Positions 18,351-21,273 of a DNA stretch of 64,000 nucleotides are shown piece by piece; positions within the stretch are counted from its first letter, which is position 1; every line of letters starts with the position of its first letter. The notes beneath the pieces were generated by a model that searched no databases, was not told where the DNA came from, and saw only the letters and a program-made list of their open reading frames with translations. The stretch is from positions 186,001 through 250,000 of the forward strand of contig NZ_QKYK01000006.1 in NCBI RefSeq assembly GCF_003426815.1, written 5' to 3'. Position numbers and translations under genes: made by a program. This DNA comes from Desertimonas flava. GTDB lineage: Bacteria > Actinomycetota > Acidimicrobiia > Acidimicrobiales > Ilumatobacteraceae.

Positions 18351-18800
18351 TCAGCGGCCCGAGCGCATCACGGCGGGGTTGCCGGTCCCCCACAAGATCG
18401 TCAGGGCCCGGTGGGCGATGCGCCACCCGCCATCGGTGCGGACGAGCTGGTCGTCGTATTTGCCGCCGACGAGATAGGTGTCGGTCCCGAGCACGTGCTG
18501 CGCCTGGAGGTAGCACCGGCACGTCGCCGTGTCGCCGTCGACGCGCACCTGATGGGTGGCGACCAGATGCTGGCTGCTGTCGAGGTGCTCGAGGGCCGTG
18601 CGGACCCGCTCCTTGATCGCCTCGCGCCCCTCCAGCGCCCACACCAGGTCGGCGGTCGCGTCGGGCAGGAAGACCTCGTCGAGGTCGTCCCACGACCTCG
18701 TGTCGAGCGCCCACGAGTAGGTGGCGGTGAGGTCGATGATCTGCTGGTGGTCGGTCACGGTGTCCCCGATCGTGTCGTGTGTGCTGTTGGTGTCGGTCAT
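18351..18800 (-). CDS. SnoaL-like (NTF2-fold) protein 3
   Basis: A 149-residue SnoaL_4-type protein: IIDLTATYSWALDTRSWDDLDEVFLPDATADL forms the first helices and acidic turn, and DGGWRIAHRALTILW the final strand. ATG 18800 is chosen for the GGAGG 9 bases upstream. It may be a dehydratase or isomerase. It diverges from the VOC gene at 18.9 kb. Confidence 0.75.
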   Translation of the reverse strand: MTDTNSTHDTIGDTVTDHQQIIDLTATYSWALDTRSWDDLDEVFLPDATADLVWALEGREAIKERVRTALEHLDSSQHLVATHQVRVDGDTATCRCYLQAQHVLGTDTYLVGGKYDDQLVRTDGGWRIAHRALTILWGTGNPAVMRSGR

Positions 18801-18883
18801 GGTCTGAGCCTCCGAGCGGGCAGCGTCGTACGGTGCTGACGCCACGCCGGTCCGGGTCGGCGGCGGGTCCTCTCGGAAACCCG

Positions 18884-19351
18884 GTGCAGATCGCCTATGG
18901 CGTCGTCGACGTGCGTGCCGCGGCGGCTCGTCGAGCAGCCGCCACCGGGGCCGGGCCGTTCGTCGTGGCCGACCACATCGGGGTCACCTCGTCGCGCGTC
19001 CACGGCCACCCCGCACCGTTCGACCACTCGTCGGCCTACGGCCAGTGGGGGCCGTTGATGGTCGAGCTCGTCGAGGAGCACACCCCGCCGATCGTGGCCC
19101 CGGGCAACGTGCACCACGTGGCGTTCATGGTCGAGTCGCTTCCGGCGGCGATGTCGTGGTGTGTCGATCAGGGGTGGCCCGAGGCGTTGTGGGCGGCGAC
19201 GGCGACCGGCCAGGAGTTCGCGTTCATGGACGCCCGTGCCGACCTCGGTCATCTCGTCGAGCTGTACGAGCCGTCCGATCGCCTGGTGGCCTTCTACGCC
19301 ACCGTCGCCGCCCTCGCCGACGCCTGGGACGGCTCCCACCCCGTCCGCTGA
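18884..19351 (+). CDS. VOC/glyoxalase-fold protein (1)
   Basis: A protein of about 155 residues with two beta-alpha-beta-beta-beta modules. QIAYGVVDVRAAA opens module 1 and NVHHVAFMVESLPAAM opens module 2, with a probable metal ligand pattern H..E..E (HHVAF, LVELYE). The start is uncertain: GTG 18884 gives the clean domain boundary, GTG 18833 adds 17 residues. It is probably a lyase, isomerase or dioxygenase of the vicinal-oxygen-chelate superfamily. Confidence 0.7.
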   Translation: MQIAYGVVDVRAAAARRAAATGAGPFVVADHIGVTSSRVHGHPAPFDHSSAYGQWGPLMVELVEEHTPPIVAPGNVHHVAFMVESLPAAMSWCVDQGWPEALWAATATGQEFAFMDARADLGHLVELYEPSDRLVAFYATVAALADAWDGSHPVR

Positions 19352-19362
19352 CCCGAATCCTC

Positions 19363-19910
19363 GATTCTCAGGCGTCATTGGTCGCGAAATCGGGCTCTCC
19401 TGTCGCGTTCGTGGGTTCTGAACGGTGCAAGTGCGTCCGGGGTGGGCCTCCGGAGCGCGCTGGGTTGGCACTTCGTCCTGGGCCGTCGCGCCTCTCTCGT
19501 CTTCTGCTGGCCGCAGGTCGGTCCGCTTCGCCGGTGACGGCTGCTGCTCCGACGGCGAGGTGATCGACGTCGGTGGCCGGGCGGAAGGTGGACACCGTCG
19601 AGAATCTGGGGCTCGATCGTGCCATTCGGTGATCGGGGGCGGGATCGTGACGAAAACCGTCACGATCCCGCCCCCGAAACATCCCCTACGAGCCGCGCCG
19701 GCGTCGAGACCCCGAGGTATGTGACGGAGAGTGCGGCAACCGCAACCGGCGACCCAAACCGCCCGTCGCACCGACAAGGTGCCGGCGACCGACGACGGCA
19801 CCCCAGCCTCACGAGCAGACCATCGTCCCGAAGCCAAGCGAACACACCCGTACCCGACCCACAGGCCCGACAGGAGCGCCCGAAAACGCGACGTATGACG
19901 CCTGAGAATC
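19363..19910. mobile_element. MITE-like 548-bp element with long terminal inverted repeats
   Basis: GATTCTCAGGCGTCAT (19363-19378) is matched exactly by its inverse at 19895-19910. The similarity continues inward for about 54 bases with scattered mismatches (GTCGCG, TCGGGC, CTCCTGTCG and TGGGT blocks recur). A perfect 20-base hairpin lies near the centre. No transposase frame is convincing inside it, and no clear target-site duplication was found. It fills the gap between two convergent genes, which otherwise holds nothing recognisable. Confidence 0.55.
19633..19677. terminator. Strong perfect hairpin, 20-bp arms, AAAAC loop
   Basis: TCGGGGGCGGGATCGTGACG (19633-19652) pairs fully with 19658-19677 across a 5-base loop. 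It sits inside the element with inverted ends and between convergent genes. It may end transcription or be part of the element's structure. There is no T tract. Confidence 0.55.
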
Positions 19911-19914
19911 ATCT

Positions 19915-21273
19915 TCAGAGGGTCGCGAGGTCGGAGTCGGGGATCCAGCTGCCGTGGAAGCCGTAAGGCACCCGGCGCGGGAGGTGGACGGTGGCGACGG
20001 GGTCGGCAGCAGGGTCGGTGGCATCGAGGATGACGAGGTCGGAGGCGCCGCGCACGTCGTCGTACACGATGCCCATCGCCCAGCCGGCGTCTTCGCCGCT
20101 GGTGTCGTCCTCGGGGACGAACACGAACTCGCCGGGGTGCGCCGAGGGTCCGAGATCGAACGTGTCCGACCGCCCGCTGTCGAGGTCGTACTTCACCACC
20201 ACGCCGGCTTCCTCGAGGACGCTGACCTCGTCGCCGCTGGCCCGTGACCGGCGCGGGGCGATCGCCCAGCCGTAGCGATGGCGCAAGCCGACGAGGCGCT
20301 CGTCGACGCGCGGGAACGCGTGCTGTACGTCGTCGAGCGGCTCCTCGCGCACCGAGCCGGTGTCGAGGTCGAACGTCCACCGGTGCAGCAACGACGGCGT
20401 GAAATCGTCCATCGAGCCACGCCACATCGTCTCGTGACGGCCGACGTCGCACGTGACCGTCGTCCCGTCGCTGTAGGCGTTGAAGGGGTGGAACACGTAG
20501 CAGGGGTCGACGTCGAACCAGCGGACGTCGACGTCGGTGCCGAACCGCGGGACGATGCCGATGCGGGCGCCGGCGTCGTCGTCCCAGCCGATCGGCGGCT
20601 CCCCGCGCATCGCCTTCTCGAGGTCGAACACCACGGGCAGGTCCATGAAGATCGCGTGGTCACGCGTGATCATGAAGTCGTGCATCATCACCGGTCGCGG
20701 GATGGTGATCGGGGAGGAATGGACGAGGGCCCCGGCGGCGTCGAGCACGTGGTACGTGAGATACGGCCCGAGCACGCCGTAGCCGAAGAAGTGCAGTTCG
20801 CCGGTCTCTGGGCAGAGCTTGGGGTGGGCGGTGAACGCCGTCGTGAGCGCTCCGCCGAAGTCGTCGCAGCCGACGGTGTCGAGCTCGGGTGACAGCTCGT
20901 ACGGAAGATGTCCCTCCTCCAGCGCCCAGATGCGCCCGGCGTGGGCGAGCACGTGGGTGTTCGCCGCGCTCGCCGTCGGGTCCATCATCGTCGCCGGGTC
21001 GGTGGCGTCGAGCGACTGCTCGAACTTCGTCGTGCGGACCCACCGGTTGCGGTACCACGACGCCCGGCCGCCCTCCAGGCGGATGCCGTGCACCATGCCG
21101 TCGCCGAAGAACCAATGGCCGACGTCGCCGACCGGGTTGGACCCGTTGCGGAGGTACCGGCCGGCGAGCGAGGGTGGGATCGAGCCGGTCACCTCCAGGT
21201 CGGTGACGGTGAGCTCGTCCTCCACCGGCGCGAAGTTGCCGGACAGGAACCACGGTGTGCGTGTCTCGGTCAT
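19915..21273 (-). CDS. Carotenoid oxygenase family protein
   Basis: A 452-residue iron(II) dioxygenase-like protein of the CCO/RPE65 family, which cleaves carbon-carbon double bonds in carotenoids, stilbenes or other alkenes. Four family histidines appear in the segments AHPKL, MMHDFMITRDH, YVFHPFNAY and YGFHGSWIPD. The N-terminal SLAGRYLRNGSNP and WFFGDGMVHGIRL blocks are characteristic. Its ATG overlaps the VOC stop (ATGA), and it is last in the operon from 25.0 kb. The cleaved substrate is probably the pathway compound, not a carotenoid, but this is inference. Confidence 0.88.
   Translation of the reverse strand: MTETRTPWFLSGNFAPVEDELTVTDLEVTGSIPPSLAGRYLRNGSNPVGDVGHWFFGDGMVHGIRLEGGRASWYRNRWVRTTKFEQSLDATDPATMMDPTASAANTHVLAHAGRIWALEEGHLPYELSPELDTVGCDDFGGALTTAFTAHPKLCPETGELHFFGYGVLGPYLTYHVLDAAGALVHSSPITIPRPVMMHDFMITRDHAIFMDLPVVFDLEKAMRGEPPIGWDDDAGARIGIVPRFGTDVDVRWFDVDPCYVFHPFNAYSDGTTVTCDVGRHETMWRGSMDDFTPSLLHRWTFDLDTGSVREEPLDDVQHAFPRVDERLVGLRHRYGWAIAPRRSRASGDEVSVLEEAGVVVKYDLDSGRSDTFDLGPSAHPGEFVFVPEDDTSGEDAGWAMGIVYDDVRGASDLVILDATDPAADPVATVHLPRRVPYGFHGSWIPDSDLATL

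Follow-up and report, generated by a model that had tools for sequence, protein, structure and literature searches.

In the genome of Desertimonas flava (G000; 6.2 Mb in 73 contigs, 96.6% complete), the gap between a Glyoxalase_4 gene and a convergent RPE65-type gene is occupied by a 548-bp stretch, the parts of which are collected in Table 1. It lies in the window, the whole 64-kb piece of DNA that we analysed (C56:186001-250000), and had been predicted from its letters to be a MITE-like element with long inverted ends, a central hairpin and no clear transposase gene. Much of that description holds. The outermost 16 nt (19363-19378 and 19895-19910) are perfect inverted repeats, the best local match between the ends does span 54 nt (score 58), with arms that reach 63 nt at 78% complementarity, the central 20-base hairpin is perfect around a 5-nt loop (19633-19677), and the three internal ORFs are blank in Pfam, by which we also reject a coding element. 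The RNA fold of 19355-19915 lies 8.4 SD under dinucleotide shuffles; a structured RNA was nevertheless rejected, as an Rfam search of the window gave zero matches and nothing indicated a known RNA. Among 600-base slices of the window, a single one exceeds 37 in inverted-repeat score, the strongest there, and it belongs to a different repeat near 2515-2900, where direct and inverted repeats (CGCCGCAGGCGGCGAG, GTTTCGTCCTCGGCG) are densely packed.

Table 1. Parts of the 548-bp stretch and its flanking genes, in window coordinates.
Feature	Position	Strand	Remarks
Flanking ORF, Glyoxalase_4 domain	18779..19351	+	stop codon 11 nt before element
Left half of host palindrome P52	19363..19384	+	A end GATTCTCAGGCGTC + ATTG + GTCG
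Putative 8-bp target CGAAATCG	19385..19392	.	P52 hairpin tip; exact 8-bp duplications in 3/3 intact ISL3 copies of relatives
MITE core, 488 bp	19393..19880	.	ISL3-type ends GGCTCTCCTGTC... / ...GACAGGAGCGCC
Core left terminal inverted repeat	19393..19416	+	best-conserved 24 nt
P77, hairpin-bearing repeat inside core	19601..19677	+	also standing alone elsewhere in genome
Core right terminal inverted repeat	19857..19880	-	best-conserved 24 nt
Putative second target copy CGAAAACG	19881..19888	.	7/8 identical to left CGAAATCG
Right half of host palindrome P52	19889..19910	-	also A end
Flanking convergent ORF, RPE65 (carotenoid oxygenase) type	19915..21273	-	stop codon 4 nt past element

The part of the original prediction that failed is the unity of the 54-base ends: the outer 22 nt are the halves of another repeat, P52, and the inner part is the terminal repeat of the MITE itself, so that the MITE assignment survives but the single long terminal repeat does not. 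The end motif GATTCTCAGNCGTC occurs in G000 at 36 exact and six one-mismatch places (reversed control, 0), most of which are uninterrupted palindromes and not the 548-bp element. With a covariance model trained on 23 uninterrupted palindromes and applied to 150 of the 4536 first-look candidates we found at least 29 distinct uninterrupted P52 loci in G000, and the palindrome is 52 nt long in 29 of 29. One end, A, reads GATTCTCAGSCGTC and the other is usually B, GATTCCTGTRCTGC-like; three of the 29 have two A ends, and the pattern search for B ends returned no B-B palindrome. The sequence CCCnAAAMCY precedes the A end at most of 42 sites, which is not so for the B end. The stem apex shows covariation when counted by cells: those changed on both sides number 33 versus 15.1 in shuffles, with none of 500 as high, while the count of pairs with double changes (six) was equalled or passed in 81 of the 500. 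In folding, P77 (see below) and three of the four P52 copies surpassed every shuffle; the fourth P52 did not. Beyond this genome, the exact pattern gave six matches in the collection of genome contigs against some 7.5 by chance (our estimate) and none in viral contigs, and the model returned weak matches alone in 40 relatives (best E 4.4e-4). As a hairpin repeat, P52 stands on its own and, among the genomes searched, is confined to G000.

P52 is a short extragenic palindrome with many copies by gene 3' ends, as REPs are. A codon-biased frame terminates within 25 nt upstream of the A end at 27 of 42 places, and at 10 of the 42 the stop codon TGA arises at the element boundary itself (T + GATTC). 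In these ten genes the boundary seems to supply both the stop codon and the C-terminal residues (PKT, PKS, PQT etc.), as at C6:102792 and C72:189096. Of 39 elements (29 P52 and 10 MITEs, two loci being in both lists), with gene ends called from codon-position GC bias and not from annotation, 32 allow a call on the A side, and 27 of these face a gene 3' end there; on the B side, 15 of 29 do so. No P52 or core was called in a divergent gap. REPs and the GTAG- and CGTC-tagged palindromes are likewise short, often species-specific and situated by gene 3' ends, where some supply the stop codon (accessible portion of PMC3733652), and an effect on translation has been discussed for REPs that lie no more than 15 nt from a stop codon (PMC12306157, in the text available). 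Unlike REPs, P52 is longer (52 nt), fixed in length and provided with two distinct ends, and it is absent from the flanks of the Y1 transposase genes in G000. A RAYT is therefore not supported as its mover: the two Y1 genes carry another palindrome, GTGCCWGGCAC. Four GTGCCAGGCAC palindromes stand in the window itself, at 2612, 37404, 44917 and 56883, and a similar motif flanks the Y1 (RAYT-like) genes at C72:106577 and C8:188. Pooling 36 elements revealed no convincing target duplication at P52 ends.

The core within the palindrome is itself a repeat. The original prediction turned on the existence of further copies, and nine others in G000 align with 78-90% identity over at least 450 of the 561 query bases, partial copies being numerous besides; 11 cores compared pairwise are 82-95% identical. 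Dispersed, bounded by terminal inverted repeats and free of a transposase, the core is thus a MITE. In 40 relatives, no genus-mate among them, there was no convincing copy, the matches covering 25-57 bases (E ~3e-5 to 1e-3). No transposase remnant was seen in the core interior. One copy (C45:15285-17139, locus L031 1786-3640) carries beside its central hairpin an rve-domain transposase element of ~1.26 kb, which we take to be IS481-like, bounded on each side by the 18-nt direct repeat GTGTCGGAAACCGTCACG; as its ends are unrelated to those of the MITE, we rejected it as a partner and regard it as an independent insertion. The 1.1-kb interval between facing P52s at C6:102792-103923 was likewise discarded as an autonomous partner, since we did not recognise its ORF as a transposase.

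A third repeat family, P77, independent of both P52 and the core, supplies the central hairpin. P77 comprises the hairpin and its left shoulder and, in our reading of the matches, recurs at more than 12 places outside cores. The flanks of nine of these were viewed: L027 turned out to be a truncated core, and several of the nine directly follow stop codons.

Ends like those of the core do occur around a transposase gene in other genomes. The core-end pattern gave 47 matches in 60 relatives and 50 for its reversed control, so the matches are chance in bulk; even so, ISL3 elements account for six of the 47 (two ends in G028, one each in G010 and G019, two in G029). In G028, an inverted pair of such ends encloses a 421-aa transposase (DDE_Tnp_ISL3, PF01610; E 4.6e-66). 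The G010 end accompanies a coding sequence 82.8% identical over 250 aa, and the G019 end likewise adjoins ISL3 coding sequence. In G029, core-like ends at two contig ends lie beside a fragment from the C-terminus (E 8e-8); C50, a third contig end of that genome, was unsupported as an ISL3 end. In the reverse direction, seven of the eight ISL3 loci examined (among 18 matches) bear a core-like end with at most four mismatches, and one with at most five. The core ends agree with nine ends from relatives at 17-21 of 25 positions, whereas more than 16 was reached by 30 of 200,000 random 25-mers from those loci. Thus the core shares its terminal repeats with ISL3 elements of same-family and same-order genomes, and the similarity ends at those repeats. 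Exact 8-bp target duplications with an AT-rich middle (CAAAATTG, CCAAAAGG, GTTTTCTA) flank all three intact ISL3 copies, of which two come from a single genome.

The expectation of a mover elsewhere in the genome, between ends of the same kind, is borne out only in part by these elements, for matching transposases lie in related genomes and not, as far as was found, in G000. ISL3 transposase genes are present in 10 of 61 genomes and none was found in G000 (96.6% complete, 73 contigs); the search itself works, because the identical query detected genes in other genomes. The mover may thus have been lost, be unassembled or be foreign.

A core end can be read at 22 loci, and at 17 of them (two decayed) the core lies in P52 arms, in either orientation relative to A and B, a count made by eye with matches judged to be chance omitted and the pattern places C32:36434 and C67:69008 (three mismatches) left out. 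Outside P52 are C21:6369, C12:287522 and C67:105342, as well as C45:63759, counted there since its apex alone is P52-like, and locus L006 (C4:91033-91600, core C4:91062), in another palindrome, where near-identical direct repeats of ~22 nt (GCCGTAGGCGGCCGG...) flank the core. Such loci show the core to be a unit of its own. Sites of the form SWWWWS are rare in the window (36 in 64 kb at 70% GC), so that P52 loops make up a small share of the candidate sites. At seven two-ended loci in P52 arms, the loop bases on the two sides agree in the window, C10 and C6 with one change or indel, agree partially in C43, and do not agree at C73, C1:53775 and C1:299324. The variable 4-nt arms flanking a core pair at seven of 28 positions versus 59 of 92 in empty P52 (Fisher 4e-4). 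These observations speak against a simple insertion history, as do the failure to find an ISL3 transposase in G000 and the lack of a transposase remnant in the core interior. Since three of seven targets mismatch and the halves around a core are often unpaired, later exchange between copies is likely.

We consider it probable, with reasonable confidence, that the 548-bp stretch is a gene-less ISL3-type MITE lodged in the loop of a separate 52-nt gene-end palindrome. A REP-like P52 would have pre-existed in the gap between the two convergent genes; an ISL3-family transposase would have acted in trans on the non-autonomous 488-bp element, with its terminal inverted repeats of ~25-36 nt; insertion would have hit the AT-rich four-base tip of P52, duplicating ~8 bp (CG-AAAW-CG); and ectopic exchange among copies may later have mixed the palindrome halves. 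Transposition in trans into P52 tips is the simplest route because the CG-AAAT-CG tip fits the AT-rich central four bases that ISCg1, an ISL3 element, favours in its 8-bp target (PMC8715038, accessible portion).

The association with P52 could also be one of survival only, insertions being tolerated after gene ends, where P52 lies, and the tip being chosen for its AT-richness, a reading that we find rather unlikely yet worth weighing. P52 and the cores do cluster at gene 3' ends, and ISCg1 insertion is described as nearly random apart from AT-richness (PMC8715038, same portion), but 17 of 22 cores in ~47 palindromes far exceeds expectation (binomial 2e-11) even with ~350 tolerated sites, a number that we assumed. 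A hairpin-tip preference would account for this excess better than mere survival. In its strongest form, the tips would be true landing pads, with a structure-seeking ISL3-type element homing to extruded hairpins and exchange between palindromes spreading the insert without a transposase; we offer this as a speculation of low probability.

Less probable again is that the whole 548-bp unit, including its outer GATTCTCAG ends, is mobile and P52 its collapsed short form. The outer ends are strongly conserved among copies, a full P52 stands on one side at C72:166132, C56:182226, C39:10883 and C45:15285, and L008 and L009 have in common a half-plus-full P52 composite. Independent deletions would not, however, be expected to leave P52 at 52 nt in 29 of 29 with variable arms mostly self-complementary; moreover, cores exist without P52 arms, either P52 end may lie to the left of a core, and the ISL3 elements of relatives terminate at the inner repeat. 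Spread of the core mainly by repair, in which broken hairpin tips would be mended from a filled P52 by ectopic gene conversion into empty ones, seems the least credible, for despite the mismatched halves (7/28), the half-plus-full forms and the closest cores (L003 and L005, 94.7%) having inner but not outer arms in common, ordinary transposition fits the ISL3-type ends and the AT-rich loop, and cores outside P52 require another route.

Our preferred reading, a MITE inserted in a P52 loop, has precedents in its parts. Like ISL3-family insertion sequences such as ISCg1, and like MITEs derived from IS ends, the core has their terminal repeats and a putative AT-rich 8-bp target; unlike the former, it lacks a transposase, its interior is unrelated, and its targets are concentrated in one palindromic repeat. 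In lying inside a dispersed extragenic palindrome it resembles the REP-inserting elements IS1397, ISKpn1, IS621, ISPpu9, ISPpu10 and ISPa11, and REP-targeting has been reported for the IS3, IS110, IS4, IS256 and IS5 families (PMC1525189, in the portion accessible), the main text of which contains neither 'ISL3' nor 'MITE'. The available part of PMC10214660 has no bearing on ISL3-type MITEs in palindromes. REP-like palindromes are thus already known as IS targets, and the open-access literature and terms searched yielded no account of an ISL3-type MITE at such a site. The components are of known kinds; their nesting and the choice of landing site look unusual.

One genome thus displays layered repeats, with P52 around an ISL3-type MITE and the MITE around P77. 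With one transposon family so strongly tied to hairpin tips, the idea that some DDE transposases search out hairpin loops as safe places can be put to the test, as can the way in which small repeats go on spreading once a genome has no transposase left. If P52 tips are indeed landing pads, a host repeat that marks gene ends would be a harmless niche for the element.
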